A stretch of DNA of 46,246 nucleotides. It comes from Labilithrix sp. (GTDB taxonomy: Bacteria; Myxococcota_A; Polyangia; Polyangiales; Polyangiaceae). The notes beneath the pieces were generated by a model. The model was not told where the DNA came from, did not search any database, and saw nothing but the letters and a program-made list of their open reading frames with translations. Positions 20,996 through 43,908 of the stretch are shown here, piece after piece. The translations under genes and the position numbers were made by a program. Numbering within the stretch: the first letter of the stretch is position 1; every line of letters starts with the position of its first letter. Where the stretch lies: contig JAHBWF010000047.1 in assembly GCA_019637105.1 (NCBI GenBank), positions 1 through 46,246 on the forward strand, read 5' to 3'.

Positions 20996-21063
20996 GAGAT
21001 CACCGGGCACGCAGTTAGCCCAACCCGCCGTCCTGGACAAGCTCGCCGGCGACGCGTACGCCG

Positions 21064-26066: not shown

Positions 26067-26089
26067 CGAGCGGCCTCCATGTCTCCCGG

Positions 26090-26118
26090 TTTCGGCCGGG
26101 GGTGTCAACTGCTATAGG
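26090..26118. promoter_or_regulatory. weak divergent promoter candidates between hisH set 2 and the nonulosonate operon
   Basis: On the plus strand TATAGG (26113-26118) lies 17 nt after TTTCGG (26090-26095), a good -10 with a poor -35, 36 nt before the ATG at 26155. On the minus strand the complement of 26103-26108 reads TTGACA, a perfect -35, but no good -10 follows at 16-18 nt. A small palindrome (CCCGG, 26085-26089, with CCGGG, 26096-26100) lies between. Only the location is well supported. Confidence 0.35.
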
Positions 26119-26154
26119 AAGCGCCTCCTGCGCGGCCTCGCGGCTCGAGGTTCC

Positions 26155-27183
26155 ATGACATACGAGTATCTAGCCAACAAAGTGGTCCTCATCACGGGCG
26201 CGGCCGGGACGGTCGGCTCGGCCATCGCCGAGCGGCTCGTCGGCCAGGTCAAGTCGTTGCGCTGCCTCGACCACGCCGAGAGCGAGCTCTTCCTGCTCCA
26301 CGAGCGCCTGAGATCGAAGGGGGTCGTGGCGCCCCAGCTCGGCGACATCCGAGACCTCGACCGCCTCCGGTTCGCCTTCCAGGGCGTCGACGTCGTCTTC
26401 CACGCCGCGGCGCTGAAGCACGTCGGGCTCGGCGAGTACAACCCGTTCGAGGTGGTGCAGTCGAACCTGGTCGGGGTGAACAACGTGATCCGATCCGCGC
26501 TCGACTCGAACGTCGAGCGCGTGATCTTCACGTCGTCGGACAAGGCGGTGAACCCCACCAACGTGATGGGCGCCTCGAAGATGATGGGCGAGAGGCTCAT
26601 CACGGCCGCCAACGAGATCCGCGGCACGCGCAAGACGCGCTTCGCGGCCGTCCGGTTCGGCAACGTGATCGGCTCCCGCGGCTCGGTCCTCCCCATCTTC
26701 GTGCGCTGCCTCCTCCGCGGCGAGCCGCTGCCGATCACCCACGCCGAGATGACCCGCTACGTGATGACGATCCGCGAGGCGGCGGATCTCGTGCTCGAGG
26801 CCGGCTCGAGGATGCACGCGGGCGAGGTCTACGTCACCAAGATGCGGGCGCTCAGGATCGTCGATCTCGCGTACGCCGCCGCGGAGGTCCTCGGCCGTCG
26901 CTGCGATCTGGTCACGACCGGCGCCCGGCCGGGTGAGAAGCTCTACGAGGAGCTCATCTCGATCGACGAGATCCCGCGGACGCTCGAGCTCGACCGGCTC
27001 CTGGTCGTCCTCCCGCCGCCCGAGGCCACGACGGAGCAGACGCCGACGTCGTCGATGTTCCCGCAGGCGACGCGCGTCACGCGGGAGTGGCACTCGTCCA
27101 AGGACACCTTGCTCAGCCGGGCCGAGATCGCCCAGTACCTCCGCGAGCATCGCGTGCTCGATCCGCTCCTGGAGGGAGCGTGA
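26155..27183 (+). CDS. UDP-sugar 4,6-dehydratase, PseB/CapE-like soluble SDR
   Basis: The soluble, 342-residue enzyme should convert a UDP-N-acetylhexosamine to a 4-keto-6-deoxy sugar, starting the diamino-trideoxy branch. It has the NAD motif ITGAAGTVGS at 13-22, FHAAALKHV, and SSDKAVNPTNVMGASK with Met138-x3-Lys142 in place of Tyr-x3-Lys, the hallmark of the PglF/FlaA1/CapE group. RFGNVIGSRGSV and TGARPGEKLYEEL are shared with PseB and CapD. The conserved region begins at ATG 26155. It is the first of 14 coupled genes. Stereochemistry (inverting or retaining) cannot be called from sequence alone. Confidence 0.88.
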   Translation: MTYEYLANKVVLITGAAGTVGSAIAERLVGQVKSLRCLDHAESELFLLHERLRSKGVVAPQLGDIRDLDRLRFAFQGVDVVFHAAALKHVGLGEYNPFEVVQSNLVGVNNVIRSALDSNVERVIFTSSDKAVNPTNVMGASKMMGERLITAANEIRGTRKTRFAAVRFGNVIGSRGSVLPIFVRCLLRGEPLPITHAEMTRYVMTIREAADLVLEAGSRMHAGEVYVTKMRALRIVDLAYAAAEVLGRRCDLVTTGARPGEKLYEELISIDEIPRTLELDRLLVVLPPPEATTEQTPTSSMFPQATRVTREWHSSKDTLLSRAEIAQYLREHRVLDPLLEGA

Positions 27184-28205
27184 ACGTCCTCGTCACCGGC
27201 GGCGCCGGCTTCATCGGACGCTGGGTCGTCGCCCGCCTGCTCCGCGACGGGGCGTCCGTGCTCGTGCTCGACGATCTCTCGAACGGACGCGAGGAGAACC
27301 TCCGCGAGCTCGAGGGGCACGCGGGCTTCCTCGGGCTCGTCCGCGGAGACTTGAAGGACGCCGGGCTCCTCGCGGAGCTCTTCGCCGCGCGGCGCTTCGA
27401 TCGCGTCTTCCACCTCGGCGCGTCGATCCACGTCCAGCGCTCGATCGACGATCCCGAGCCGACCTTCCGCAACGACGCCGAGGGGACGTTCAGGGTCCTG
27501 GAGGCGTGCCGCGCCGAGTACTTCGCGCGCAACGGGCTCGACGCGTCGAAGAAGCAGTTCGATCACGATCGCGACGTCGCGCGGGTGTCCGATCGCTCTC
27601 CCCGCGTGGTCGTCATGTCGACGTGCATGGTCTACGACCTGGCCGCCGGCGGCGCGATCCCGGAGACGCACCCGTACCGCCCCGCGTCCCCCTACGCCGC
27701 CGCGAAGATCGCCTCCGACGTCCTCGCGCTCTCGTACTTCCACGCGTACGGGATGCCGGTCACCGTCGTGCGGCCGTTCAACACCTACGGACCGTTCCAG
27801 AAGAGCAACTCCGAAGGAGGCGTGGTCTCGATCTTCCTGAAGCGCGACATCTGCGGGGAGCCGCTCCTCGTCAAGGGCACGGGGACGCAGACCCGCGATC
27901 TCCTCTACGTCGAGGACTGCGCGGACTTCGTCGTCGGCGCGGCCGAGTCGGCGTCGGTCGAGGGGGAGATCGTGAACGCGGGCACCGGCCACGACATCTC
28001 GGTCCGCGACCTCGCCGGTCTCGTCCGCGGCGCGAACAACTCGGTCGAGCACGTCCCTCACGATCACCCGCAAGCGGAGATCCCCAAGCTGCTCTGCGAC
28101 GCGCGCAAGGCGAAGCGCCTCCTCGGCTGGGAGCCCAAGGTGCCCCTCGAGGAGGGCCTGCGCCGGACGCGCTCCTGGCTCGAAGAGAATCGGTGGGCGT
28201 GGTGA
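27180..28205 (+). CDS. NAD-dependent nucleotide-sugar epimerase/dehydratase (extended SDR)
   Basis: A 341-residue extended SDR with VTGGAGFIGRWV at the N-terminus, FHLGASIHVQRSIDDP, a catalytic region MSTCMVYD and SPYAAAKIASD (Tyr-x3-Lys), and RPFNTYGPFQ. An unusual charged insertion of roughly 25 residues (ASKKQFDHDRDVARVSDRS) sits before the catalytic strand. It follows the PseB-like gene with GTGA overlap. The standard pseudaminate pathway needs only one SDR before the aminotransferase, so this extra enzyme may epimerise the intermediate and lead to another nonulosonate isomer. The exact reaction is open. Confidence 0.85.
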   Translation: MNVLVTGGAGFIGRWVVARLLRDGASVLVLDDLSNGREENLRELEGHAGFLGLVRGDLKDAGLLAELFAARRFDRVFHLGASIHVQRSIDDPEPTFRNDAEGTFRVLEACRAEYFARNGLDASKKQFDHDRDVARVSDRSPRVVVMSTCMVYDLAAGGAIPETHPYRPASPYAAAKIASDVLALSYFHAYGMPVTVVRPFNTYGPFQKSNSEGGVVSIFLKRDICGEPLLVKGTGTQTRDLLYVEDCADFVVGAAESASVEGEIVNAGTGHDISVRDLAGLVRGANNSVEHVPHDHPQAEIPKLLCDARKAKRLLGWEPKVPLEEGLRRTRSWLEENRWAW

Positions 28206-29398
28206 GCGAGAAGCCACTCCCTTATGGCAGGCAGCTGATCGACGAGGCCGACATCGACGCCGTCGTCTCGACGCTGCGCGGCGACTGGCTCACCCAGGGG
28301 CCGAAGGTCGCCGCGTTCGAGGATCGGCTGGCCGAGCTCACCGGCTCGAAGCACGCCGTCGCCGTCGCCAACGGGACGGCCGCGCTCCACCTCGCCTGCC
28401 TCGCCGCCGGCGTCGGTCCGGGCGACACCGGCGTGACGAGCACGATCACGTTCGTCGCCTCGGCGAACTGCATCCGCTACGCGGGGGGCCGGCCTCTGCT
28501 CTGCGACGTCGATCCCGAGACGGCGCTCCTCGACCTCGCGTCGCTGCGAGCGCGCGTCGCCGCGCTCGCGGCGCGGGGCACGCCGCCGAAGGTGATCGTC
28601 CCCGTGGACATGACCGGCGCGGTGCCCGATCTCCGAGCCGTACGCGAGATCGCCGACTCCGTCGGGGCGCTCGTCATCGAGGACGCGGCCCACGCGCTCG
28701 GCGCGACCTACGGCGGCGGGCGCTACCGCGCGGGGGGCGGCGCTCACGCCCAGATGGCGACCCTGTCGTTCCACCCGGTGAAGCACATCACCACCGGAGA
28801 GGGCGGCGCCGTCCTGACGAACGACGACGCGCTCCATCGCGAGCTCCTCGACCGCCGCACCCACGGGATCACCAAGGATCCCTCGCGCCTCCGCCGGAAC
28901 GACGGGCCTTGGTACCACGAGCAGCAGTCGCTCGGCTTCAACTACCGCATCTCCGATCTGCAGTGCGCCCTCGGGCTCTCGCAGCTCGAGAAGCTGCCGC
29001 GCTTCGTGGAGCGCCGGCGCGAGCTCGCCGCGCTCTACGACCGTGAGCTCGGGCGGCTCTCGGAGCACGTCTCGCCGCTGCGCGTCCCGGAGGGGTGCTC
29101 CTCCGCCTACCACCTCTACGTCGTCCGGATCCGCGCGGCCGAAGGGCTCCCGCTGTCGGCGACCGCGGAGCGGCGGCTCTCCGTGTACACGAAGCTCCGC
29201 GAAGCGAACATCCACCCCCAGGTCCACTACATCCCGGTCCACACCCAGCCGGACTTCGTCGACCACGGTCTCGGAGAGGGGGACTTCCCCGGAGCGGAGC
29301 GCTACTACGCCGGCGCGCTGAGCCTCCCGCTCTTCCCCGCCATGACGGACGACGACGTCCTCCGGGTCGTGGAGGCGCTGGCGGCCGCGGTTCGATGA
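28202..29398 (+). CDS. pseC: PseC-like UDP-4-keto-sugar aminotransferase
   Basis: This PLP enzyme should aminate the 4-keto sugar to UDP-4-amino-4,6-dideoxy-N-acetylhexosamine. At 398 residues it is the right size. It has PYGRQLIDEADIDAVVSTL at the start, ANGTAALHLACLAAG, IEDAAHALGATY with the PLP Asp, and SFHPVKHITTGEGGAVL with the Schiff-base lysine, all as in PseC. GTG 28202 overlaps the upstream stop by 4 nt. A very long upstream frame belongs to the shadows of the two SDR genes. The next gene is the synthase of the same pathway, 10 nt away with AGGAG between. Confidence 0.9.
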   Translation: MSEKPLPYGRQLIDEADIDAVVSTLRGDWLTQGPKVAAFEDRLAELTGSKHAVAVANGTAALHLACLAAGVGPGDTGVTSTITFVASANCIRYAGGRPLLCDVDPETALLDLASLRARVAALAARGTPPKVIVPVDMTGAVPDLRAVREIADSVGALVIEDAAHALGATYGGGRYRAGGGAHAQMATLSFHPVKHITTGEGGAVLTNDDALHRELLDRRTHGITKDPSRLRRNDGPWYHEQQSLGFNYRISDLQCALGLSQLEKLPRFVERRRELAALYDRELGRLSEHVSPLRVPEGCSSAYHLYVVRIRAAEGLPLSATAERRLSVYTKLREANIHPQVHYIPVHTQPDFVDHGLGEGDFPGAERYYAGALSLPLFPAMTDDDVLRVVEALAAAVR

Positions 29399-29408
29399 GG
29401 AGCGCTCG

Positions 29409-30941
29409 ATGAACGAATTTCGGATCGGCGAACGTGAGGTCGGCGGCTCGGCGCCCACGCTGATCGTCGCCGAGCTCTCCGCGAACCACGGGGGCAGCCT
29501 CGACACCGCGCTCGCCACGATCGAGGCCGCGGCCAGGTGCGGCGCGGACGCGATCAAGATCCAGACGTACACCCCGGACACGCTCACGCTGCGCTCGAGC
29601 GCCGCTCCGTTCGTGGTCCGGACCAAGAACGAGTGGGCCGGCCGCACGCTCCACGACCTCTACGCCGAGGCGATGACGCCCTGGGAGTGGCACGCCGCGC
29701 TCCGTGACTGCGCCCGCGCCAACGGCCTCGTCTTCTTCTCGACGCCGTTCGACGCGACCGCGGTGGAGTTCCTCGAGGACCTCGAGGTGCCGGCGCACAA
29801 GGTCGCGTCGTTCGAGCTCGTCGACCTGCCGCTCGTCGAGCGGATCGCCCGCACCGGCAAGCCCGTCATCATGTCGACCGGGATGGCCACGCTCGGCGAG
29901 ATCGAGGCCGCCGTCGCGACGTGCCGCTCCGCCGGGAACGACCGCGTCGCGCTCCTGCGCTGCGTGTCGGCGTACCCGGCGAAGCCGGAGTCGATGGACC
30001 TCGCGTCGCTCTCGACGCTGTCGTCCTTCGGCGTCGTCACCGGGCTCTCGGATCACACCCGCGATCCCACGGCGGCCATCGCGGCGGTCGCACTCGGGGC
30101 GAAGATCCTCGAGAAGCACTTCATCCTCCGACGCGACGTCGGAGGCCCGGACGCCTTCTTCTCGCTCGAGCCCGACGAGCTCCGGCGGACGGTCGAGGCG
30201 GTGCGCGCGGCCGAGGCCGCGGTCGGCCGCCCGCGCTTCGGCCCCGCTCAGGAGGAGGTCCCGAGCCTCGCCTTCCGTCGCTCGCTCTTCGTCGCCCGAG
30301 ACGTGCCCGAGGGGCGCGCCGTGGACATCGACGACGTCCGCAGCGTGCGCCCGAGCGGCGGCCTGCCGGTCCAGGAGCTCCCTTCCGTGCTCGGTCGCGT
30401 CGCGCGGCGTCCGCTCCGCGCGGGGACGCCTCTTCGCTGGGACATGCTCGGCGATCGCTCCGACCTCGACGGCGTCACGCTGCGCCCGGCCACGAGCGAC
30501 GACGCCGACCTCCTCCTCGAGTGGCGGAACGACCCCGTCACGCGCGAGATGTCGCTCTCGAGCGACGTCGTCACGCCGGAGGGACACGCGGCCTGGCTCG
30601 CGGCCTCGCTCGGATCGCAGGAGCGCCGTCTCTTCATCGCGAACGCGGACGGTAGGCCCGTCGGGCAGGTCCGGCTCGACGCGAGGGGGGCCGGCTCGTA
30701 CGAGATCTCCGTCACGATCGCCCCGGCGGCGCGCGGCCGAGGACTCGCGGCGCGCGCGCTCTTCGCTGCGGAGGAGGAGGCCCGCGCGCGAGGGAACGTG
30801 CGGCTCGAGGCGACGATCCGACCGGAGAACCAGGCGAGCGTCGCCGCCTTCAAGCGCGCGGGCTACTACGGCTTCGCGCGCGCGACGAGAGGAGGCACGG
30901 ACGTCCTGCGGTGCGAGCGCAGGCTCCGGCACTACGGATGA
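29409..30941 (+). CDS. fusion: NeuB/PseI-type nonulosonate synthase + PseH-like GNAT acetyltransferase
   Basis: A bifunctional protein of 510 residues. Residues 1-280 are a NeuB-type barrel that condenses a 6-deoxy-2,4-diacetamido hexose with phosphoenolpyruvate: VAELSANHGGS, ADAIKIQTYTPDT, MSTGMATLGEIE, LSDHT, and EKHFILRR with DAFFSLEP. A SAF-like domain follows (about 285-350, VARDVPEGRAVDIDDVRS). From about 354 to the end is a GNAT domain with LLEWRNDPVTREMS near its start, as in PseH, and the acetyl-CoA loop ARGRGLA. PseH acts before PseG and PseI, so the fusion joins an early and a late step. DAFFSLEP favours the PseI over the NeuB/LegI type, tentatively. Confidence 0.9.
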   Translation: MNEFRIGEREVGGSAPTLIVAELSANHGGSLDTALATIEAAARCGADAIKIQTYTPDTLTLRSSAAPFVVRTKNEWAGRTLHDLYAEAMTPWEWHAALRDCARANGLVFFSTPFDATAVEFLEDLEVPAHKVASFELVDLPLVERIARTGKPVIMSTGMATLGEIEAAVATCRSAGNDRVALLRCVSAYPAKPESMDLASLSTLSSFGVVTGLSDHTRDPTAAIAAVALGAKILEKHFILRRDVGGPDAFFSLEPDELRRTVEAVRAAEAAVGRPRFGPAQEEVPSLAFRRSLFVARDVPEGRAVDIDDVRSVRPSGGLPVQELPSVLGRVARRPLRAGTPLRWDMLGDRSDLDGVTLRPATSDDADLLLEWRNDPVTREMSLSSDVVTPEGHAAWLAASLGSQERRLFIANADGRPVGQVRLDARGAGSYEISVTIAPAARGRGLAARALFAAEEEARARGNVRLEATIRPENQASVAAFKRAGYYGFARATRGGTDVLRCERRLRHYG

Positions 30942-31942
30942 CCCCCGCGCCGTCCGTCATCTTCCGGGTCGACGCCGAGCCGGCCATCGGCCTCGGCCAC
31001 CTCGCGCGCTGCCGGACGCTGGCGTCGGCGTTCACGCGCGCGGGCGCTCGCTGCTCCCTCCTGACGGCGACTCCGGACGAGGTCGCGCGGCGCGCCGCGG
31101 GCCTCCCGGTCCTCCGCCTCGCGGGGCCGATCGGCTCTCGCGACGACGCGCGCGAGACGGCGCGCGCGGCCCGGGACGCCTCCCTCGTCGTCGTCGACGG
31201 GTACCGATTCGGCGAGGCCTTCGCCGAGGCGCTCGACGCGCCCGAGGTGCTCTGGATCGACGACGGCGGCTTCGAAGGGCTACGCCCCGGCCGCGTCCTG
31301 AACCACAACCTCTACGCGTCGGCGGAGCTCTACGCGTCGATGGATCCGGCTCGCCTCCTGCTGGGCCCCGGCTACGCCTTGATCCGAGAGGAGTTTCGGA
31401 GCGCGAGCGCCGCGCCTCGTCGGTCCGGACCGCCCGGCCGCGTCCTCGTGACGATGGGCGGCTCGGATCCCGCCGGCGTCACGGCGAAGGTGCTCGACGC
31501 CCTCTCGAGGTCGGGCGCCCGCGACTCGCTCACCGTGCGCGCGCTCGTGGGCGAGCTCAACCCGCGCAGGGAGCACCTCCTCGAGCGTACCGACGTCGAC
31601 GTGGTGGTCGCCCCGCCGGAGGTCGCGCCGCACATGCGATGGGCCGACGTGATCGTCAGCGCCGCGGGCGGGACCGCGATGGAGCTCTGCTGCGTCGGCG
31701 TCCCCGCGATCGTCGTCGCCGTCGCGGACAACCAGGTCCCGGTCGCCGAGGCCCTGGCGCGGCTCGAGCTGGCGCGGAGCCTCGGCTGGCACGCGGATCT
31801 CCGCCCCGAGGCGGTCGCCGGGGCCGTCGAGGAGCTCCTCGCGTCGCCGGAGCTCTGCGAGCGGATGCGCGCCCGTCAACGGGAGATCGTCGACGGGCGC
31901 GGTCCGGACCGCGTCGTCGCGGCGCTGGGAGCGTTCACGTGA
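30938..31942 (+). CDS. pseG: PseG-like UDP-sugar hydrolase
   Basis: PseG removes UDP from UDP-2,4-diacetamido-2,4,6-trideoxy-altrose, giving the free sugar for the synthase. The 334-residue protein has a GT-B fold pattern with FRVDAEPAIGLGHLARCRTLA at the N-terminus, where the Gly-Leu-Gly-His-His-like loop holds the catalytic His of PseG. WIDDGG, LLGPGYALIREEF, VTMGGSDPAGVT and ISAAGGTAMELCCVGVPAI (here VSAAGG) complete the match. ATG 30938 overlaps the synthase stop as ATGA. The gene order synthase-PseG-SpsF parallels spsE/spsG/spsF-like clusters. Confidence 0.9.
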   Translation: MTPAPSVIFRVDAEPAIGLGHLARCRTLASAFTRAGARCSLLTATPDEVARRAAGLPVLRLAGPIGSRDDARETARAARDASLVVVDGYRFGEAFAEALDAPEVLWIDDGGFEGLRPGRVLNHNLYASAELYASMDPARLLLGPGYALIREEFRSASAAPRRSGPPGRVLVTMGGSDPAGVTAKVLDALSRSGARDSLTVRALVGELNPRREHLLERTDVDVVVAPPEVAPHMRWADVIVSAAGGTAMELCCVGVPAIVVAVADNQVPVAEALARLELARSLGWHADLRPEAVAGAVEELLASPELCERMRARQREIVDGRGPDRVVAALGAFT

Positions 31943-32667
31943 AGATCGTGGTGGTCGTTCAGGCGCGCGTTCGGTCCACGCGCCTCCCGGCGAAGGTCCT
32001 GCTCGACCTCGGAGGCGTGACGGCTCTGGAGCGCTGCCTCTCGCGCGCTCGGCGCATCCGCGGCGTGCACGAGGTCGTCGTCGCGACCAGCGATGCGCCC
32101 GCCGACGAGCTCATCGAGAGCGTCGGTCGGCGCCTCGGCCACGAGGTCGTGCGCGGCTCCGAGTCCGACGTCCTCGCGCGGTTCGCGAAGGCTGCGCGGC
32201 TGCGCGAGGCCGACGCGATCGTACGGCTCACCTCCGATTGCCCGCTGCTCGACGTCGAGCTGTCGTCCCTGGTCGTCGATACGTTCGTCCGCGAGCGCCC
32301 CGACTACGCGAGCAACGTGCTCACGCGCCGGCTCCCGCGCGGCCTCGACACCGAGATCGTGAGCCGCGAAGCCCTCGAGCGCGCAGACCGCGACGCGACC
32401 GCGCCCGACGAGCGCGAGCACGTGACGCTGCACCTGGTTCGGCGCCCGGAGAGCTTCGTGCTCCGCTCCGTCGAGAGCTCGACGACGGACCTCTCGCGCC
32501 ATCGTTGGACGCTCGACACCCTCGACGACTACCGTTTCCTGCACGCCCTCTTCGAGGCCCTCGGGCCTCGCGCGGCGGACGCCTCGATGAACGACGTCCT
32601 TCGAGAGCTCGAGCGTCGCCCCGCCCTCCTCGAGATCAACGCACACGTCGAACAGAAGAGAACCTGA
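31939..32667 (+). CDS. spsF: SpsF-family cytidylyltransferase-like protein
   Basis: A 242-residue member of the CTP transferase superfamily in the SpsF branch. The signature QARVRSTRLPAKVLLDLGG is at residues 8-26, TSDAPADELIE follows, and TSDCPLLD provides the metal-binding Asp. SpsF-type proteins accompany NeuB and PseG homologues in many nonulosonate and spore-coat clusters and are taken as CMP-sugar synthetases, with limited biochemical proof. A second, NeuA-type cytidylyltransferase ends this operon, so one of the two may serve another sugar. It begins at GTG 31939 with a 4-nt overlap and shares 1 nt with the next ATG. Confidence 0.87.
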   Translation: MKIVVVVQARVRSTRLPAKVLLDLGGVTALERCLSRARRIRGVHEVVVATSDAPADELIESVGRRLGHEVVRGSESDVLARFAKAARLREADAIVRLTSDCPLLDVELSSLVVDTFVRERPDYASNVLTRRLPRGLDTEIVSREALERADRDATAPDEREHVTLHLVRRPESFVLRSVESSTTDLSRHRWTLDTLDDYRFLHALFEALGPRAADASMNDVLRELERRPALLEINAHVEQKRT

Positions 32668-33806
32668 TGCGATACTGCACACGCTGCGTCTACCCGGCCG
32701 TCGCGGCCACCCCCCTCACCTTCGACGACGGCGGCGTCTGTACGGGCTGCCGGGCCTACGACCAGCGGCAGAAGATCGACTACGCCGGGAGACGAAAGCT
32801 CCTCCACGAGCTGCTCTCCGAGTACAAGACGGACGGGTCGAACTACGACTGCATCATCCCCGTCAGCGGCGGGAAGGACAGCTACTACCAGACCCACGTG
32901 ATCGTGAAGGAGCTCGGGCTGAAGCCCCTCCTCGTCACCTACCACGGCAACAACTACCTCCCGGTCGGCGAGCGCAACCTGCTCCGCATGCGCGAGGTCT
33001 TCGACGTCGATCACGTGATCTTCAAGCCGTCCGTGAGCGTCCTGAAGAAGCTCAATCGGATCTGCTTCGAGCTCATGGGGGACATGAACTGGCACGCTCA
33101 CTGCGGGATCTTCACGTACCCGGTGCGCGCGGCCTTCCACTTCCGGGTCCCGCTGCTCATCTGGGGAGAGCACGGCTACACCGATCTCGCGGGCATGTAC
33201 TCGATGAACGATTTCGTCGAGATGACGGCGAAGTACCGGCTCGAGCACGCGCAGCGAGGCTACGATTGGAAGGACATGGTCGGCAGGGAGGGGCTGACCG
33301 AGCGCGATCTGCTCTGGGCGAAGTACCCGACCGACGACGAGATCGACGACGTCGGGATCCGCGGCATCTACATCTTCAACTACGTCCCCTGGGAGGCGAA
33401 CGACCACGCCGAGCTCGTGAAGAAGCTGTACGGGTGGGAGGAGGCGCCGGAGCCGTTCGACCGGACGTACCGCCGGATCTCCAACCTCGACGACATGCAC
33501 GAGAACGGCATCCACGACTACCTGAAGTACGTGAAGTTCGGCTACGGACGCGGGACCGATCACGCGTGCAAGGACATCCGCGCCGGGAAGATGACGCGCG
33601 CCGAGGGCGTCGAGATGGTCCGGAAGTACGATCACGTGAAGTCGCGCGACCTCGCGCGCTGGCTCGACTACGTCGGGATGAGCGAGGACGAGTTCGATCG
33701 CGTGGCCGACACGTTCCGAGATCCTCGCGTCTGGAGAAAGAACGAGCGCGGACAGTGGGAGAAGGACAACGTCTGGGACCCGCAGCATCGGGTCCCGGCG
33801 CGATGA
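32667..33806 (+). CDS. pseA: N-acetyl sugar amidotransferase (PseA/LegA/WbpG family), set 2
   Basis: A 379-residue amidotransferase of the same broad family as the set 1 copy but closer to the subgroup with SGGKDS. It has C4-x2-C7 and C25-x2-C28, PVSGGKDSYYQT at 66-77 (ATP PP-loop), WHAHCGIFTYPVRAA and LLIWGEHGYTD. Embedded right after PseG and SpsF homologues, it fits PseA, which turns an acetamido group of a nonulosonate into acetamidino. No glutaminase domain is present; ammonia likely comes from the divergent hisH/hisF pair at 24667-26066. Assignment to the family is firm, substrate is inferred. Confidence 0.88.
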   Translation: MRYCTRCVYPAVAATPLTFDDGGVCTGCRAYDQRQKIDYAGRRKLLHELLSEYKTDGSNYDCIIPVSGGKDSYYQTHVIVKELGLKPLLVTYHGNNYLPVGERNLLRMREVFDVDHVIFKPSVSVLKKLNRICFELMGDMNWHAHCGIFTYPVRAAFHFRVPLLIWGEHGYTDLAGMYSMNDFVEMTAKYRLEHAQRGYDWKDMVGREGLTERDLLWAKYPTDDEIDDVGIRGIYIFNYVPWEANDHAELVKKLYGWEEAPEPFDRTYRRISNLDDMHENGIHDYLKYVKFGYGRGTDHACKDIRAGKMTRAEGVEMVRKYDHVKSRDLARWLDYVGMSEDEFDRVADTFRDPRVWRKNERGQWEKDNVWDPQHRVPAR

Positions 33807-34795
33807 CCGTGGTCGCGCGGGTCGCGCGGCTGCTCGCGCCGCGAGAGCTCGTCTTCGAGGACGTCGAGCTCGACGCGGGCGCCCTCGAGCCCGGCTCGCT
33901 CTTCGCGGAGACCGAGGTCTCCGCGGTCTCCCTCGGCACCGAGCGCGCCGCGTACGTCGGCGATCCTCCGCTCCGGCCGGGGCCGGTGTACCCGCGGCTC
34001 GTCGGGTACTGCAACGTGGCGACGGTCCGCGCGTCCGCCTCGCCGGATCTTCCGATCGGCGCGCGGATCCTCACCCACCAGTCGCACCGGAGCGCGTTCG
34101 TCTGCTCGACCGCCGACGTCCTCGCCCGCGTCCCTCCCGAGGTCACGTCCGCCGAGGCGAGCCTCACCTACCTCGCGCACCTCGGCCTCGCGGCGCTGCG
34201 CAGGGCCGCGTTCGCCCCGGGTGAGCGCGTCGCGATCGTCGGGCTCGGCGCGATCGGCCTCGCGACGACCGCGCTCGTCCGGGCGTTCGGCTCCCCCGCG
34301 GTCGCGATCGGCAACGCGCCGGAGCGCCTCTCCCTCGCGCTCGCGGCGGGGGCGAGCGCGGCGCGCGCCGGCGACGAGGTCGAGGACGCCTCGGCCGATC
34401 TGGTCGTCCTCACCGCGAACACGTGGGAGGCGTGGCGGCTCGCGACGCGGATCGCCGCGCGGTTCGGGCGGATCGCCGTGCTCGGCTTCCCCGGGCGCAC
34501 CGATGGGCCGCCGCCGTTCAACCCGCTCGAGTCGCGCTCCTTCTACGACAAGCAGCTCGCGATCTTCGGCGCGGGCATGCCCGTGGCCTCCGGCCCGGCG
34601 CCGGAGAGCGAGGCGACGACGCTCTCCCGCGGCGTCGAGATGCTCCTCGGGATGATCGCGCGCGGGCAGCTCTCGCTCGCGAAGCTCGTCACCCACGAGG
34701 TGCCCTGGACCGAGCTGCGAGACGTCTACGAGCGCGCGGCGGCGGGCGACAAGCAGCTCGTCACCGCCCTCCTCCGCTGGAGGGACGGCCGATGA
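33803..34795 (+). CDS. medium-chain dehydrogenase/reductase (BchC-like zinc-less MDR)
   Basis: A 330-residue MDR-superfamily protein. The nucleotide-binding motif VGLGAIGLATTALVRAFG is at about 148-165. The catalytic-zinc ligands of true alcohol dehydrogenases are missing: the usual Cys region reads SLGTERAAYVG and the GHE motif is replaced by LVGYCNVATV. That pattern is typical of the BchC-like group, often paired with Gfo/Idh oxidoreductases, and the next gene is one, overlapping by 4 nt. The two may jointly oxidise and reduce a sugar, for example inverting a hydroxyl or making a keto group. No precedent in nonulosonate pathways known to me. Confidence 0.82.
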   Translation: MTVVARVARLLAPRELVFEDVELDAGALEPGSLFAETEVSAVSLGTERAAYVGDPPLRPGPVYPRLVGYCNVATVRASASPDLPIGARILTHQSHRSAFVCSTADVLARVPPEVTSAEASLTYLAHLGLAALRRAAFAPGERVAIVGLGAIGLATTALVRAFGSPAVAIGNAPERLSLALAAGASAARAGDEVEDASADLVVLTANTWEAWRLATRIAARFGRIAVLGFPGRTDGPPPFNPLESRSFYDKQLAIFGAGMPVASGPAPESEATTLSRGVEMLLGMIARGQLSLAKLVTHEVPWTELRDVYERAAAGDKQLVTALLRWRDGR

Positions 34796-35886
34796 ATGGA
34801 CCGCTGCGCTTCGGCCTCGTCGGCTGCGGCCGCATCGGCGCCCTCGCCGACGACCGCGCCGCGGGGTGGCCGCCGGAGCTCCGGGAGCTCTGGCTGCCCT
34901 ACGCCCACGCCTCCGCGATCGCGGCGACGCCGCGCGCGCGCCTCGTCGCGGTCTGCGACGCGTCGGAGGCGGCGGCGGCGGCGGCGGCGGCGCGCTTCCG
35001 CGTGGAGCGGACGTACACGGACCACCGACGGATGCTCGAGCACGAGCGCCTCGACGCGGTGGCGATCGCGACGCGCACGGCCGAGCGCCCAGGCATCGTC
35101 CTCGACGCCATCGAGGCCGACGTTCGCGCGATCTACTGCGAGAAGCCCCTGGCGTCGACGCTCGAGGAGGCCGACGCCATCGGCGAGGCCGCGCGACGAC
35201 GCCGCGTCGCCTTCGGGTACGGCACGCGGCGACGGCACATGGACGTGTACACGCGCGCGCGCGAGCTCTGCCGCGAAGGCGCGATCGGCGCGCTCAAGCT
35301 GGTCGTCGTCCGGTTCGGCGCGGGGGGCTTGATGTGGAATCATCCGCACAGCGTCGACATCGCGTCCTTCTTCGCCGGCGATCCCGGGATCCGGTCCGTC
35401 CAGGGCACGCTGGAGCTGCCCGAAGGCGCCCCGACCGAGCTCGTCGCGGATCGGACCCTCGACTGCGATCCCGTCCTCGTGTCGGGCGCGCTGGAGTTCT
35501 CGAACGGGGTCCGCGCCGCGATCCTCCCCGTGGACGGCCAGGACGTCGAGCTCGTCGGGACCACGGGGATCTTGACCGTGCGCCAGGACGGCCGGGAGCT
35601 CATCCTCCGCACGCTCGCGACCGACCGGACCGACATCGGGTGGATGCTCACCGAGCAGCCGATCGAGGGTCGGCCCGCCGCGAGCGGGACGCGTCGAGGC
35701 ATCGAACGCCTGATCGCCGAGGTCGAGGTGCCCTCGAGCGACGACGAGCTGCGGGCGGCGCTCGAGGGCCACGAGGCCATCTTCGGGCTCGCCGAGAGTC
35801 ACTTCGCCGGCGGCGCGCGGGTCTCGCTCCCTCTGCGACGGCGGCGGATTCGCATCACGGGGCGCGTCGGAGACAAGCTGTGCTGA
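34792..35886 (+). CDS. Gfo/Idh/MocA-family oxidoreductase
   Basis: An NAD(P)-dependent oxidoreductase of 364 residues. It shows the N-terminal motif GLVGCGRIGALADD, CDASE at the end of the second strand, the diagnostic CEKPLAST at about 118, and a C-terminal substrate domain with MWNHPHSVDIASFF, where the His/Asp pair is expected for catalysis. Eight GCG codons in a row (34969-34992) encode Ala 60-67, a trinucleotide run that cannot shift frame by unit changes. It shares ATGA with the upstream MDR gene. Substrate probably a sugar or nucleotide sugar; not resolvable further. Confidence 0.86.
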   Translation: MNGPLRFGLVGCGRIGALADDRAAGWPPELRELWLPYAHASAIAATPRARLVAVCDASEAAAAAAAARFRVERTYTDHRRMLEHERLDAVAIATRTAERPGIVLDAIEADVRAIYCEKPLASTLEEADAIGEAARRRRVAFGYGTRRRHMDVYTRARELCREGAIGALKLVVVRFGAGGLMWNHPHSVDIASFFAGDPGIRSVQGTLELPEGAPTELVADRTLDCDPVLVSGALEFSNGVRAAILPVDGQDVELVGTTGILTVRQDGRELILRTLATDRTDIGWMLTEQPIEGRPAASGTRRGIERLIAEVEVPSSDDELRAALEGHEAIFGLAESHFAGGARVSLPLRRRRIRITGRVGDKLC

Positions 35887-36446
35887 CGGATCGCCTCCTC
35901 TTCGTCGACGCCGAGTTCACCGGCGAGCATCAGAAGACGACCCTCGTGTCGCTCGCGCTCGTCGGGCTCGACGAGGAGTCGATCCTCGTGACGTTCAACG
36001 ACTACGACCGTGACCAGGTCACCCCGTGGCTGGAGGAGAACGTCCTCGCTCACGTCGACGCGTCCCGATCGGTGTCGAGCGCGGAGGGCTTTCGTCGGAT
36101 CGCCGAGTTCGTCGAGGCGTACTCCGCCGGCGAGCGCGTCTCGCTCGTCTCCGCCGGAAAGCTGACGGATCTGATCCTGCTCTTCGAGCTCTGGCACCAC
36201 GCGCACCCGGAGCGGAAGTATTTCCACAACCTGTACTGCCTGCCGCCCAGCCTCAACCACGCGGCGCACTTCGACCTCAACACGATGCTCTACCTGGCCG
36301 GCGTCGACCCCGGCGTCGACCGCGCCGAGTTCGCGGGCGTGACCGGCCCCAGGAAGCGGCACGACGCGTTGTGGGACGCGCGCGTCGTGCGCGCCTGCTT
36401 TTTCAAGCTCCACGACCCGAAGAACTTCCCTGGGCTCGCGCGATGA
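35880..36446 (+). CDS. DEDDh-fold 3'-5' exoribonuclease-like protein (Rv2179c/DUF5051 type)
   Basis: The 188-residue protein resembles the small RNase T-like exoribonucleases of the Rv2179c group. D10 and E12 lie in LFVDAEFTGEH (motif I), D97 in SAGKLTDLILLFEL (motif II), and H161 with D166 in HDALWDARV (motif III), so all five DEDDh residues can be placed. The GTG at 35880 overlaps the Gfo/Idh stop by 7 nt, and the next gene overlaps by 4 nt, so it is a true operon member. An RNase in the middle of a sugar operon is unexpected. It may instead cleave a nucleotide-linked intermediate or regulate the transcript; neither is shown. Confidence 0.78.
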   Translation: MLTDRLLFVDAEFTGEHQKTTLVSLALVGLDEESILVTFNDYDRDQVTPWLEENVLAHVDASRSVSSAEGFRRIAEFVEAYSAGERVSLVSAGKLTDLILLFELWHHAHPERKYFHNLYCLPPSLNHAAHFDLNTMLYLAGVDPGVDRAEFAGVTGPRKRHDALWDARVVRACFFKLHDPKNFPGLAR

Positions 36447-37450
36447 CCCTGTTCGCGCCGGACAACCTCTGCCGGCTCCGCGCGTCGTTCGCGCCGTCGT
36501 CGACGCCGCTGGCGCTCGGAGTGGCCGACGTCGCCCGGACCCATTTCGGCCTGGCTCGTCCGGACGTCTCCGCGTCGTCGGACCTGAACGGCTTGACCGA
36601 GTGCTTCCTGGTCGAGGACGACGTCACGCGACGTCGGCTCTTCGTGAAGACGAGCCGGCACGCCGGGGCGCCGGCGCGGTTCCGGCGCGAAGCGGAGTGC
36701 TCGATCCGCCTCTGCGACGCCGGCGCCCCGGTGCCGCGCGCGCTGCTGCCCGTCGTCGAGTGGGAGGAGCGCTCCGTCCTCGCCTTCCCCTACATCGAGG
36801 GAGCGCACTTCTCCGGCGAGGGCGCGCAGCTCGAGAGGGCGGCGGCGGCCTTCGGCGCGCTGACCACGATCGCCACCGACGTGCTCGGGAACGTCGACGC
36901 CCCCGGCGCGCCGCCGCTCGCGCGCCTCCTGGACGAGCTCGTCGCGCTCTATGGCCGAGCGCGCTCCGACGCCCGCACCGCTCCGATCTGCGCCGCCTAC
37001 GCCGCGGACGTCGCGCGCGCGATCGATCGCGTGAGCCGGCGCGTCGACGAGCTCGTCGCGCCGACGGCGTGGACCCACGTCGACTACCACCCCCTGAACC
37101 TCCTCTTTCGTGGCGACGAGCTCGCCGCGGTCCTCGACTTCGAGGACCTGCTGCGCTTCCCGGTCGCGATCGCCTCGGGCTTCGCCGCCTACAAACTGAT
37201 CCGCCGCGCCGCCGTGACGGCCAACGGCCACGTCGACGCGTCCCTGGCGAGCACCTGGGCGCGCGCCACGCGGCAGGAGATCGACCTGCCCCTCCTGGCC
37301 TTGGGTTCCCGCGCGCGGGCGCTGATGCTACTGCACCTCATCCTCGAGCACGCGCTCGACCAGGGAGACGATCGCTTCGTGTACGATCTCCCGAAGCACG
37401 CGAGCTCCTTCGCCGAGATGGATCGAGTATTCGACCAGGAGAACGGATGA
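36443..37450 (+). CDS. APH/choline kinase-fold phosphotransferase
   Basis: A 335-residue protein with the aminoglycoside phosphotransferase-like kinase fold. K69 in RLFVKTSRH fits the ATP lysine, THVDYHPLNLLF provides the catalytic loop (H212, D214, N219) and AVLDFED the metal-binding D232. Such kinases phosphorylate small hydroxylated molecules, including sugars and choline-like alcohols. In this operon it could phosphorylate a free sugar released by hydrolysis, upstream of the NeuA-type CTP transferase; that is inference. Resistance to an aminoglycoside is unlikely given the setting. ATGA overlaps on both sides bind it to its neighbours. Confidence 0.83.
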   Translation: MTLFAPDNLCRLRASFAPSSTPLALGVADVARTHFGLARPDVSASSDLNGLTECFLVEDDVTRRRLFVKTSRHAGAPARFRREAECSIRLCDAGAPVPRALLPVVEWEERSVLAFPYIEGAHFSGEGAQLERAAAAFGALTTIATDVLGNVDAPGAPPLARLLDELVALYGRARSDARTAPICAAYAADVARAIDRVSRRVDELVAPTAWTHVDYHPLNLLFRGDELAAVLDFEDLLRFPVAIASGFAAYKLIRRAAVTANGHVDASLASTWARATRQEIDLPLLALGSRARALMLLHLILEHALDQGDDRFVYDLPKHASSFAEMDRVFDQENG

Positions 37451-38214
37451 TGCGTTTCGAAGGTAAGGTGGCGCTGGTCACGGCCGCGAGTCGCGGCATC
37501 GGCTTCGCAGTGGCCCACGGACTCCGGGCCGGCGGCGCTCGCGTCGCGATCTGCGGGCGCGACGAGGCTTCGCTCGCGGCGGCGGCGAAGGAGCTCGGCG
37601 CGTTCGCGCTCGCCGGGGACATCGGCGACGCGAGCTTCCTGGAGCGGCTCGTCCGCGAGACGGAGACCCACTACGGCTCGACGATCGACGTCCTCGTCGC
37701 GAACAACGGCGGGCCCCCGCCCGGCGGCTCTACCGAGGTCACCGAGGAGCAGTGGGCCGCGGCCGTCCAGCGGAACCTCATGAGCGCCGTGCGTCTGACG
37801 AGGCTCGTCGCGCCCGGCATGCGCTCGAAGAAATGGGGTCGCATCATCCACATGGCGTCCACGACGGCGAAGGAGCCCGACGACGGCATGGTGCTGTCGA
37901 ACACGACCCGCGCCGCCACCGTCGCGTTCGCCAAGACGCTCTCGCGCGAGCTCGGACCGGACGGCGTCACGGTGAACGTGGTGCTCACGGGCGCGGTCCT
38001 CACCGAGAGGCTGCGCTCGCTGCTCCAGCCGGCCCCGGGGACGAGCTCGCTCGACGAAGCCGTCGCCGAGGCCGCCAAGATGTTCCCCGTGCGGTACATC
38101 CCGTCGGCCGACGAGTTCGCCAAGGTCGTCCTGTTCCTCGCCTCGACGGAGGCGGGCTACCTCACCGGCGTCGCCCTGCCCGCGGACGGCGGCTTCATGC
38201 GGAGCGCGATGTGA
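37447..38214 (+). CDS. atypical short-chain dehydrogenase (active-site Tyr and Lys replaced)
   Basis: A classical SDR of 255 residues with the NAD(P) motif TAASRGIG at about 12-19, NNG (86-88), the structural N110 and the catalytic-strand Ser (MASTT, S138). Where Tyr-x3-Lys should be it reads S151-N-T-T-R155, so both the proton donor and the lysine are missing. The rest (SRELGPDGVTVNVVLTG, GGFM near the end) is well conserved, so this is not decay. A subgroup of SDRs with SNxxR at this site exists to my knowledge, with unclear chemistry. ATG 37447 overlaps the kinase stop; a second ATG follows at once. Confidence 0.85.
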   Translation: MMRFEGKVALVTAASRGIGFAVAHGLRAGGARVAICGRDEASLAAAAKELGAFALAGDIGDASFLERLVRETETHYGSTIDVLVANNGGPPPGGSTEVTEEQWAAAVQRNLMSAVRLTRLVAPGMRSKKWGRIIHMASTTAKEPDDGMVLSNTTRAATVAFAKTLSRELGPDGVTVNVVLTGAVLTERLRSLLQPAPGTSSLDEAVAEAAKMFPVRYIPSADEFAKVVLFLASTEAGYLTGVALPADGGFMRSAM

Positions 38215-38903
38215 TCCACGCGGTGGACCGGGTCCTGGGACCGGTCGTCGACGCTGCGCGCGACAAGGTCGAGAGCATGCTCCGCTCGTCGGCCGGGCCG
38301 GAGGAGGAGCTGCGCCGGCTCGCCCAGCCGGCGCTGGGCGCGGACGTGGTCGAGCGCGTGCTCGAGCTGGCGCGCTCCCTGGGGAAGACGGGCGCGCCGT
38401 CGGGGCACGACGCGTACCTCTCGCATCCCTTTCGCGTCGCCCGCGTCGCCATGACGCTGCGGGACGGTCCCGACGCGCGCACGTTCACCGTCGGGACGCT
38501 GCACAACGTCTACGAGATCGGCAACGTCGGCGAGGCGCACCTGGTCGAGCGCGGAGTCGCGCCCGACGACGCGGCCGCCATTCGACTCTTGACGATCGAC
38601 CGCAGCCGCGAGACCGACCCTTCCTACCTGCGCGCCTTCTACGGCGCCATCGAAGCGCACAGCGAATGGCTGGCGCTCGTCCGCACCGTCGACAAGCTGG
38701 ACAACGTCCTCGGCCTGCAGCTCCTCGCGGAGGGTCCGGTCAAGACGTCGTACATCGATCTGGCCGAACGCTTCGTAGGCCCGATGGCGCGCGCCCTCGA
38801 CGCGAGGCTGGGCGCGTACTTCGCCGAGGCGATCGCCTTCGCTCGCGCGACGCCGTCCGATCCGGCCCGCATCGCCGACTACGAAAGGCGGACGCGCGCA
38901 TGA
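38211..38903 (+). CDS. HD-domain protein of RelA/SpoT-hydrolase style with HN in place of HD
   Basis: The 230-residue protein resembles the HD phosphohydrolase half of RelA/SpoT proteins. H72 in LSHPFRVARVAMTL is the first metal ligand. The central doublet is H98-N99 (TLHNVYE), not His-Asp, and the far ligand is D164 in TVDKLDNVLGL, aligned to KLADRLHN. The synthetase domain is absent, so if active it would be a stand-alone hydrolase of a pyrophosphorylated or nucleotide substrate. Asn in place of Asp may alter metal binding or abolish catalysis. It overlaps its neighbours by 4 nt each side. Function in the glycan operon is unknown. Confidence 0.75.
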   Translation: MIHAVDRVLGPVVDAARDKVESMLRSSAGPEEELRRLAQPALGADVVERVLELARSLGKTGAPSGHDAYLSHPFRVARVAMTLRDGPDARTFTVGTLHNVYEIGNVGEAHLVERGVAPDDAAAIRLLTIDRSRETDPSYLRAFYGAIEAHSEWLALVRTVDKLDNVLGLQLLAEGPVKTSYIDLAERFVGPMARALDARLGAYFAEAIAFARATPSDPARIADYERRTRA

Positions 38904-39601
38904 TCAACGGCAAGACGGCCGTGGCGATCGTGACCGCGCGCGGCGGCTCCAAGGGCGTGCCGCGGAAGAACGTCCGACCCGTCGCCGGCAAGCCGCTCAT
39001 CACCTGGACGATCGAAGCCGCCAAGACCGCGCGCACGATCGATCGCGTCGTCGTCTCCTCCGACGACGACGAGATCCTCGCGCGCGCGGCGGAGAGCGGA
39101 GCCGAGTCGATCCGCCGCCCGCCGGAGCTCGCGACCGACCTCGCGCAGCAGGAGGACGCCGTCGTCCACGCGATGCGCGCGCTCGAGCAGCTCGGCCGCG
39201 CGGCCGATCTCGTCGTCCTCCTCACGCCTACGAACCCTCTGCGCGACGGCGCGCTGATCGACGAGGTGCTCGGCTTCCACGCGCACCACGACCGGGCGCG
39301 CGCGACGCTCACGGTCGTCGAGTGCGAGCACCATCCGCTCCGAGCGAACACGCTCCCTCCGGATCGAAGCATGGCGGAGTTCATGCCTCCGGACCTCAAG
39401 TGGAAGAACCGGCAGGAGCTGCCCGTCTACTACCGCATCAGCGGCTCCGTGTGCGTCGCCGACTGGGACTACTTCCACGAGCAGCGCAGCTTCTTGACGG
39501 ACCTCACGTTCGCCTACCCGACGGCCCCGCGCGCGGGGCTCGACGTGGACGGCGAGGTCGACCTGCACCTCGCCGAGCTGTACCTGAGCGGCAAGGTCTG
39601 A
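38900..39601 (+). CDS. NeuA/PseF-type acylneuraminate cytidylyltransferase
   Basis: The enzyme activates a nonulosonic acid as its CMP derivative, using CTP. It is 233 residues, normal for the NeuA/PseF/LegF family. VTARGGSKGVPRKNVRPVAGKPL covers residues 11-33, here the nucleotide-binding loop; LLTPTNPLRDG carries the family TxPLR motif, and YYRISGSVCVADWDYF plus GLDVDGEVDLHLAE are typical C-terminal signatures. It is the last of the 14 coupled genes. Specificity for pseudaminate, legionaminate or another isomer is not readable. A hairpin follows the stop. Confidence 0.9.
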   Translation: MINGKTAVAIVTARGGSKGVPRKNVRPVAGKPLITWTIEAAKTARTIDRVVVSSDDDEILARAAESGAESIRRPPELATDLAQQEDAVVHAMRALEQLGRAADLVVLLTPTNPLRDGALIDEVLGFHAHHDRARATLTVVECEHHPLRANTLPPDRSMAEFMPPDLKWKNRQELPVYYRISGSVCVADWDYFHEQRSFLTDLTFAYPTAPRAGLDVDGEVDLHLAELYLSGKV

Positions 39602-39624
39602 CGGCGCCGCGCGCGCGGACGCCG
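39602..39624. terminator. GC-rich hairpin between convergent operons
   Basis: CGGCG-C-CGCG pairs with CGCG-GA-CGCCG immediately after the stop of the cytidylyltransferase, with a small internal mismatch. It lies in the 45 nt between convergent stops. No T-tract is present. Confidence 0.3.
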
Positions 39625-39646
39625 ACGGTACGCCCCGCGCGACGCG

Positions 39647-40531
39647 TCAGTCGAGCAGACCGACCGACGCGCGCTTCGCCTCGGCCGCCAGCGCGGGGCT
39701 CGTCTCGTACCCCTTGAGGTAAACGTAGTCCGGGCGCGACTGGATGTAGCGTCGGTACGCGCGCGCGTGACGGTCGTTCGCGCTCGCGACGATGAAGAAC
39801 GCGAACTTCCGGTGAGCCTCCGGGATCGTCGACACCCGGGCCGGCGTCGCGCGATGGTCCAGCCGGTAGTCGAAGATGACGACGTCGCCGGCCGCCGTCG
39901 AGACCGTCCGCCCGCGGCGGTTGTCGTCCAAGGACTTGAGCTTGTAGAGGGCGCGCGACACGAGCGAGATCGGCCACACCTTGCTCTGCGGTACGATCCG
40001 ATCTCGGTTCCGGTGCGAGCCGACGATCACGTCGATCCCTCCCCCGTACAGCGGGTGGTTCTCCTGCAAGTACAGGGCGCACTGGACGATCCTGAAGTCC
40101 GCCTCGCGATGGAACCGCAGGCCGGCGACCTCTTGAGACGTCGTATCCTTGTGCCAGCCGCCGTAGCCGCGATCGTGGATGGCGGCCTCGGGCAGGAACA
40201 AGAAGTCGTCGCCGAGCAGCTCTCGCAGCGCGGCGACGAGCGCCGGCTGAAACGGCAGGCCCGTGAGCGATGCGTACCGGTTGAGCGGATCGAAGTAGGC
40301 CCGTTTGTAGTTCGTGTGCTCGTTGATGTCCCCCGGGTAGGTCGACGGAGCGTCGAAGATCCTCGTCAGCTCGGACCTCAGCGCGTCGACCTGAGCCTCC
40401 CCGAGCACGTTTCGAAGGACGACGAAGCCGTTCTTCGCGAACTCCTGCCGGAGGCGGGTCGAGCCTGCGCTCGCGCGCGGGCGCGACACGCCCGTCTCAC
40501 TCGACGATTCAGCGGTGTTGGACATCTCCAT
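39647..40531 (-). CDS. phytanoyl-CoA dioxygenase (PhyH)-family oxygenase
   Basis: This 294-residue protein belongs to the Fe(II)/2-oxoglutarate oxygenases. The iron site can be placed: H127 and D129 in GGWHKDTTS and H226 in FDYRLDHRATP, with an Arg a few residues later for 2-oxoglutarate. GGGIDVIVGSHRNRD is a typical PhyH strand. GAGG lies 6 nt before ATG 40531; a second ATG lies 6 nt inside. It overlaps the upstream glycosyltransferase gene by 23 nt and ends the minus-strand operon that starts at wbpB. It may hydroxylate a sugar or acyl substituent of the glycan; substrate unknown. Confidence 0.87.
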   Translation of the reverse strand: MEMSNTAESSSETGVSRPRASAGSTRLRQEFAKNGFVVLRNVLGEAQVDALRSELTRIFDAPSTYPGDINEHTNYKRAYFDPLNRYASLTGLPFQPALVAALRELLGDDFLFLPEAAIHDRGYGGWHKDTTSQEVAGLRFHREADFRIVQCALYLQENHPLYGGGIDVIVGSHRNRDRIVPQSKVWPISLVSRALYKLKSLDDNRRGRTVSTAAGDVVIFDYRLDHRATPARVSTIPEAHRKFAFFIVASANDRHARAYRRYIQSRPDYVYLKGYETSPALAAEAKRASVGLLD

Positions 40532-43290: not shown

Positions 43291-43292
43291 GG

Positions 43293-43904: not shown

Positions 43905-43908
43905 GATG

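Follow-up and report, generated by a model that had tools for sequence, protein, structure and literature searches.

Many bacteria display nonulosonates on their surfaces, and to our knowledge the genes acting beyond the core pathway to diversify these sugars are poorly mapped. In Bacillus thuringiensis, Pen and Pal together stand in for PseB, and Bacillus subtilis makes legionaminate with sps genes, of which spsF acts late in the nonulosonate pathway (both according to excerpts of PMC7439481). EpaA (a cytidylyltransferase-reductase fusion) and EpaB (an SDR) convert pseudaminate (Pse) to 8-epi-Pse, as stated in part of a 2025 report (PMC12053666). A section of another paper describes a Vibrio pse cluster encoding an SpsF-like/aldo-keto reductase protein and then a dehydrogenase (PMC7371886), and an extract of a further one gives the legionaminate (Leg) pathway a PtmA and an oxidoreductase, PtmF, of its own (PMC4481668). 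Here we analyze a nonulosonate operon (positions 26155 to 39601, plus strand) in a 46,246-nucleotide (nt) stretch of Labilithrix sp. DNA (contig JAHBWF010000047.1), the whole of which is referred to as the window. The operon is in two parts, a pseudaminate-type core (genes 1 to 7; 26155 to 33806) and an addition (genes 8 to 14; 33803 to 39601), hereafter the cassette.

We propose, with a probability of roughly 0.45, that the operon makes a CMP-activated pseudaminate-type sugar for an O-antigen-like polysaccharide and that the cassette remodels the nonulosonate, which a second cytidylyltransferase activates. By homology, genes 1 and 2 would perform a Pen/Pal-like dehydration of UDP-GlcNAc, followed by PseC amination, PseH-like acetylation, PseG release, and PseI condensation; SpsF (gene 6) would activate the core nonulosonate, and WbuX, with HisH and HisF, would turn an N-acetyl into an acetamidino group. 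We infer that the MDR and Gfo/Idh proteins (genes 8 and 9), acting as a pair, may remodel the nonulosonate by oxidation and reduction and that gene 14, the second cytidylyltransferase, may activate the altered sugar separately. The operon supplies a defined set of candidates for tailoring genes.

A codon-position gene model placed 14 plus-strand genes in the operon, with 4-nt overlaps at 9 of the 13 junctions. The remaining four junctions measured -13, +10, -1, and -7 nt, the +10 being the sole gap. The first-pass annotation of this DNA had reported 14 tightly coupled plus-strand genes with one 10-nt gap, and the gene model confirmed this; one overlap, between genes 2 and 3, is 13 nt long, or 4 nt if gene 3 begins at GTG 28202 rather than at 28193. 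No promoter-like sites were found within 25900 to 39800, and a single terminator-like place, listed twice, was found there (2 sites versus 2.9 in shuffles); both results are weak evidence in GC-rich DNA (window, about 71% G+C).

Four core proteins exceeded their NCBIfam cut-offs, namely, the PseC aminotransferase (gene 3, 28193 to 29398, start possibly 28202; TIGR03588, 456.7 versus 423.5 bits), the PseI synthase (gene 4, 29409 to 30941; TIGR03586, 421.9 versus 340.25 bits), the PseG UDP-sugar hydrolase (gene 5, 30938 to 31942; TIGR03590, 172.9 versus 153.55 bits), and the WbuX/PseA-type N-acetyl sugar amidotransferase (gene 7, 32667 to 33806; TIGR03573, 333 versus 203 bits). These scores uphold the earlier description of genes 1 to 7 as a pseudaminate-like path plus amidation. 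PseI, which has a SAF domain, is fused to a PseH-like GNAT domain that fell under the NCBIfam PseH cut-off (36.2 versus 93.1 bits), and it is the single NeuB-family gene found in this genome (8.45 Mb; 334 contigs; 91.5% complete). Gene 6 (31939 to 32667; PF02348), the first of two cytidylyltransferases, is of the SpsF type; it is 42% identical to a cytidylyltransferase from a Synechococcus (cyanobacterial) plasmid pse locus, the sole one annotated there in the 25 kb shown, and it had no match in the phage search. The SpsF type of gene 6, the Pal-like nature of gene 2, and the PseH-like domain of gene 4 were missing from the first-pass annotation. As a separate observation, the PseI-GNAT fusion recurs in the window's order (L164 to L170 and L173), where eight fetched regions gave matches across almost the whole length of the protein at 53 to 65% identity.

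For the dehydration step, a Pen/Pal-like pair is predicted instead of the canonical one-enzyme PseB. Gene 1 (26155 to 27183), a PseB-family UDP-GlcNAc dehydratase (PF02719) with Met at the catalytic-Tyr position (NVMGASK), scored 272.3 bits on the NCBIfam PseB model, below the cut-off of 407.75. Its best PDB match was Pen (6bwc; 219 bits), only 2.4 bits above FlaA1 (216.6). The adjoining gene 2 (27180 to 28205), an extended SDR, matched Pal best (6bwl; 349 bits; runner-up, 169 bits), and the two probably constitute a Pen-like and Pal-like unit. The locus resembles the B. thuringiensis CMP-pseudaminate pathway in these two genes and in the PseC, PseG, and PseI family enzymes that follow, but it has in addition a PseI-PseH fusion, an SpsF cytidylyltransferase, an amidotransferase, and the seven-gene cassette. 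The B. subtilis sps legionaminate pathway shares with the window an SpsF-type cytidylyltransferase, Met and Lys in the active site of the first enzyme, and UDP-linked precursors (from the same excerpts of PMC7439481). The window differs from it in having a Pal-like second enzyme and in passing the PseC, PseG, and PseI cut-offs, models on which the sps proteins were not scored.

The active-site motif was examined in 20 regions with a pseB match. In seven regions (L164, L166, L168, L169, L171, L176, and L183), Met replaced the catalytic Tyr (NVMGASK or NMMGASK), and all seven had a Pal-like gene at 69 to 74% identity. The other 13 were of the Tyr type (NLYG[AS][TS]K) and had no Pal-like gene at that level; two of these, L175 and L159, gave merely 26 to 29% Pal-like matches. 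Among the 20 PseI-anchored regions fetched from the same order (see below), 8 had a Pal-like gene at 69 to 74%. The Pen/Pal-like core is common to at least seven other regions in the window's order. Tyr-type L159 also showed an SpsF-type cytidylyltransferase sequence fused to an annotated class III aminotransferase (6393 to 8423) in its pse operon.

The cassette opens with an MDR-family dehydrogenase (gene 8, 33803 to 34795; PF00107 weak, below cut-off; zinc ligands apparently absent by eye) and a Gfo/Idh/MocA oxidoreductase (gene 9, 34792 to 35886; PF01408; EKP motif present by eye), the former matching the N-terminal half of bi-domain oxidoreductases. Of the order's 178 other genomes, 25 had an MDR relative (E value ≤ 1e-8). 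Eight relatives were scanned for domains (six from the order and two plasmid proteins): in seven, a single frame carried ADH_zinc_N and then GFO_IDH_MocA, whereas L189 was a standalone MDR. To judge from this domain order, the window pair looks like a split form of the fused protein. Bi-domain oxidoreductases of polysaccharide clusters have both domains in the same order as genes 8 and 9, whereas the window has two separate genes and its operon lacks a heparinase or alginate-lyase partner. Both plasmid MDR-Gfo copies sit in polysaccharide clusters, and a third plasmid MDR match (from a haloarchaeon) lies outside such a cluster. The standalone MDR in genome G740 had no window gene nearby except MDR.

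At the other end of the cassette, gene 14 (38900 to 39601; PF02348; match to the PseF model) encodes a NeuA/PseF-type CMP-nonulosonate cytidylyltransferase, the second of two, with CMP-NeuAc synthetases as its nearest PDB relatives. The preceding genes had been described as tightly coupled to a NeuA-type CTP transferase, which holds, the transferase being a second one of CMP-nonulosonate type. We would draw the boundary of the cassette to include it, giving seven genes instead of six. An Azospirillum relative of gene 14 (41% identity) overlaps a wbuX gene, which is followed by hisH/hisF. Pfam and NCBIfam backed the earlier names for the MDR, Gfo/Idh, APH, SDR, and CTP transferase proteins.

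Two CMP-nonulosonate-type transferases thus lie in an operon of a genome in which one NeuB gene was found, and the core has SpsF already. This could suggest that the cassette is a pathway of its own, leading to some other CMP- or CDP-linked glycan component, in which a small sugar or polyol would be shaped by the oxidoreductases, phosphorylated by the APH protein, and activated by gene 14. The cassette's own kinase and cytidylyltransferase fit such a pathway, as do the inositol and sugar dehydrogenases among the Gfo relatives. However, gene 14 is nearest to CMP-NeuAc/Pse synthetases, which use 2-keto acids, not phosphates, and no glycosyltransferase was seen in the cassette. We consider a separate pathway unlikely.

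Between these ends lies gene 10 (35880 to 36446), a DEDDh nuclease-fold protein that is RNase AS-like by its relatives and model. It keeps D10, E12, D97, H161, and D166, which we take to be the five DEDDh catalytic residues. The DEDDh name given in the first pass was backed by a weak match to the NCBIfam RNase_AS equivalog (28.5 bits; cut-off of 200 not reached), by related proteins in 112 phage records (up to 34%), and by an AlphaFold model of good quality (pLDDT, 88) with RNase AS as the top match (TM score, 0.71). RNase AS and RNase T were the closest folds, and 4hvj, a Mycobacterium tuberculosis protein solved with AMP, was among the top matches. The residues and the modeled fold are consistent with an RNase AS-like exonuclease. 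RNase AS and the phage RNase-AS-like DEDDh exonucleases have the fold and all five residues in common with the window protein; unlike them, the window and Bacteroidales copies share an 11-residue insert and make up a separate clade.

Relatives of gene 10 were absent from the 281 other genomes of the phylum sample, and 1 of 108 other genomes in the family gave a fragmentary match (E value, 7e-4). A scan of genome_contigs (84,980 species by its description), in which the query was the window protein aligned to four phage relatives, yielded 42 loci. The closest relative (L014, Bacteroidales; 46%) begins 55 nt beyond pseI, at the 3' end of an operon that contains pseB, pseC, a PseF-type gene (28%), wbuX, hisH, and hisF. 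The other 41 loci matched at 23 to 48% over their best segments, some very short; none had a pse neighbor by tblastn (E value, 1e-4), and L041 and L044 had one other window-gene match each. In a 26-row tree, the window and L014 proteins were sisters (support, 99/96). Alignment A3 comprises the window protein together with 21 of the 42 loci; 26 loci were cut out, of which L017, L025, L034, L040, and L044 were omitted. The five catalytic residues were invariant in A3, and the 11-residue insert (near residues 109 to 130) was common to the window and L014; L026 and L031 had 4 extra residues, and the other 18 rows had none. Among 344 genomes of L014's order, the close form occurred in its own genome only; five others gave weak matches, and their fetched regions contained no other window gene.

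By predicted gene content, one independent case, L014, links the DEDDh protein to operons for amidinated pseudaminate. A nuclease-fold protein in two pseudaminate/amidotransferase operons, those of the window and of one Bacteroidales genome, presumably from a different phylum, is a testable oddity, and the link deserves a full-database check. No paper linking nonulosonic acids and an exoribonuclease was found among open-access papers. A more specific version of our proposal is that the DEDDh family was recruited to amidinated nonulosonate synthesis, where it would act on a nucleotide-linked intermediate or by-product, and that, with the redox/kinase cassette and the second CMP-sugar synthetase, it would contribute to an undescribed nonulosonate; we hold this to be a long shot. 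A recent phage origin of the gene is not favored, because in the tree the window protein falls beside the copy from the Bacteroidales pse operon. L014 also contains, within its pse operon, a single frame (7451 to 8890) in which a GNAT domain follows a PseG-like sequence.

The remaining cassette genes encode an APH-type kinase (gene 11, 36443 to 37450; PF01636; catalytic-loop HVDYHPLN and DFE motifs by eye), a divergent SDR (gene 12, 37447 to 38214), and a SpoT/MESH1-like protein (gene 13, 38211 to 38903). The best relative of the APH protein in the phylum sample (G102; E value, 1e-8) resembles a homoserine-kinase-type protein. Gene 12 matched the adh_short_C2 family (PF13561) but lacks the catalytic Tyr and Lys, having SNTTR at the expected YxxxK. 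In an alignment with the window SDR, SNxxR stood at the same place in 2z1n, 1o5i, and 5va8, and SGVVN did in 6jh7; on these motifs, the protein is assigned to a divergent class. A phage search with it listed SDR-type or unannotated places, and a plasmid relative from Azospirillum (H29; 40%), among the better plasmid matches, was not beside nonulosonate genes. Gene 13 aligned with RelA/SpoT- and MESH1-like proteins and had no Pfam match even at an E value of 10. Three aligned relatives keep HD and ED, where gene 13 has HN and EI; the earlier "HD-domain" label stands as a distant SpoT/MESH1-type relationship, but not as a motif. Its AlphaFold model, made without an alignment (pLDDT, 44), was not used.

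These proteins allow another reading, in which the DEDDh, HD, and APH proteins would serve as clean-up or protection against nucleotides or dead-end intermediates. The closest folds of the DEDDh protein (RNase AS and RNase T, with the AMP-bound 4hvj among the top matches) and the SpoT/MESH1 likeness point this way, but Asn replaces the Asp of the HD motif and PADLOC matched none of the six proteins. We judge clean-up to be very improbable. The PADLOC result also led us to reject a phage or defence reading of the six. Plasmid searches with the HD, DEDDh, and APH proteins found nothing, and viral-contig scans with APH and HD found no relative; a viral-contig scan with alignment A2 gave one 29% relative, at a locus with no other window-gene match.

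For the cassette as a remodeling unit, the EpaA/EpaB 8-epimerization pair is the nearest precedent, and the cassette would express the same idea with different parts. By family only, the two are alike in having an extra cytidylyltransferase, an adh_short_C2-family SDR, and a reductase beside a Pse pathway (part of PMC12053666). The window differs in having no aldo/keto reductase, in its SDR without YxxxK, and in its added MDR, Gfo, APH, DEDDh, and HD genes; the first two differences are why we do not file the cassette as an Epa system. An EpaA architecture was observed elsewhere, in a Marinovum algicola plasmid pse locus (L131, 17563 to 20060), as a CTP_transf_3-Aldo_ket_red fusion adjoining an SDR.

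Campylobacter jejuni-type Leg operons (PtmA/PtmE/PtmF) also resemble the window in placing SDR and oxidoreductase genes next to a CMP-nonulosonate synthetase, but no PtmE, LegG, or LegC was seen in the window operon. PtmA/PtmF orthology was not supported in a comparison with an Azospirillum plasmid Leg operon (L154), two genes of which are taken to be PtmA and PtmF from order and size and near which wbuX/hisF/hisH lie: the window SDR matched at 23% over 118 amino acids (E value, 5e-4), and the window Gfo had no match to the gene in the PtmF place at an E value of 0.01.

To place the cassette among relatives, we compared 53 other nonulosonate regions: 20 anchored on PseI (window's order), 20 on relatives of gene 14 (phylum), and 13 on NeuB (plasmids; L127 to L133 and L154 to L159). 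The regions were up to about 25 kb long, several were ended by contig ends (e.g., L088, L169 to L174, L176, and L177), and L171 and L172 probably represent two halves of the same locus. PseI relatives occurred in 85 of the order's 184 genomes (own included; E value ≤ 1e-30), from which 20 places were fetched. These 20 had no MDR, Gfo, DEDDh, APH, or HD match even at an E value of 1e-3. Core genes were common among them; 10 had an spsF-type gene, and pseG was only 31 to 41% identical. L178 had a 29% SDR adjoining spsF. Partial gene 14 matches appeared in L178, L171, and L182 (30 to 40% over 121 to 125 amino acids; E values, 8e-12 to 7e-6), which we take to be the spsF genes of those regions because the best query for each place was never gene 14. 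The gene 14-anchored regions had no MDR, Gfo, DEDDh, APH, or HD and one SDR at an E value of ≤1e-5 (25%); their gene 14 counts are by selection, since they were chosen through gene 14 relatives. The plasmid regions had no MDR, DEDDh, APH, or HD; Gfo matched in L155, L156, and L157 and SDR in L131, L156, and L157 (all 25 to 32%), and gene 14-type matches (E value ≤ 1e-5) were found in 7 of the 13.

Genes 8 to 13 as a block are not a conserved module in this 53-region sample. The first-pass annotation had posited a six-gene module and named a lack of co-occurrence as evidence against it; the block was absent from all 53 regions, which does not support the module claim. Its statement that known pathways do not need the six genes is supported by the PseI-anchored regions, which lack MDR, Gfo, DEDDh, APH, and HD, but is half right for Leg, with its own PtmA and PtmF oxidoreductase. 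Since cassette genes were not seen beside the cores of relatives, we place the end of the core at gene 7.

Several results weigh against the proposed remodeling of a pseudaminate-type sugar. In the 53 regions, MDR, DEDDh, APH, and HD were found in none even at an E value of 1e-3, and at ≤1e-5 Gfo matched in three and SDR in five, all at 25 to 32%. A domain scan found no Aldo_ket_red in the 14 operon proteins, hence no EpaA-type fusion, and the window SDR, being without YxxxK, is a poor counterpart of EpaB. Gene 14 scored 120.1 bits on the PseF model, below the cut-off of 205.7. L014 had no MDR, Gfo, APH, SDR, or HD by tblastn; its DEDDh gene is followed, unlike that of the cassette, by a glutamate-dehydrogenase-type gene, a 752-amino-acid protein without a Pfam match, an AMP-binding enzyme, and a glyoxalase-type protein. 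The tree program issued a warning about the length of the window branch and about long branches that meet close to it. Finally, the sequence does not settle Pse versus Leg stereochemistry of the product, because B. subtilis makes legionaminate with similar sps enzymes (excerpts of PMC7439481).

The survey gives some weight to the view that the cassette genes are passengers, that is, unrelated glycan or housekeeping genes gathered behind the operon in a gene-exchanging polysaccharide island, without a common product. Besides the absence of the block from the 53 regions, no pse genes were detected by tblastn around HD relatives (6 of 6 regions) or APH relatives (8 of 9) in the phylum sample, several of these regions being short, and the DEDDh gene is absent from the family's 108 other genomes save for the one fragmentary match. 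On the other side, all seven cassette genes overlap their neighbors by 4 or 7 nt, and GC3 (G+C at third codon positions) is 0.90 to 0.96 across all 14 genes, with the cassette the same as the rest of the operon. MDR and Gfo are a recurrent pair, and the DEDDh gene has its independent pse-operon link. Pure chance is argued against by that L014 operon, which ends in the DEDDh relative, and by the frequent fusion of MDR and Gfo in relatives. We regard the passenger view as somewhat unlikely. Recent acquisition as judged by composition was a further candidate; because GC and GC3 match those of the neighbors, composition gives no sign of it.

The rest of the window looks, mostly by eye, like an O-antigen-type cluster, with a FlaA1/WbpM-like dehydratase, glycosyltransferases, a flippase-like protein, and a further amidotransferase with HisH/HisF-like partners. 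Immediately upstream of the operon and pointing away from it (24667 to 26066, minus strand) are genes for a HisH-like subunit, a probable WbuX partner (25449 to 26066; homologues occur with wbuX in L166, L169, L172, and L178), and a HisF-like partner subunit (24667 to 25452; homologues in the same regions). A second HisF/HisH/WbuX-type amidotransferase set was noted by eye at 19540 to 22210 (homologues in L155 and L170), apparently giving the cluster two acetamidino-forming systems. Downstream, at 42148 to 44856, are DegT aminotransferase, hexapeptide acetyltransferase, and Gfo/Idh-like genes, which we take to resemble a diacetamido-sugar (Wlb-type) set.

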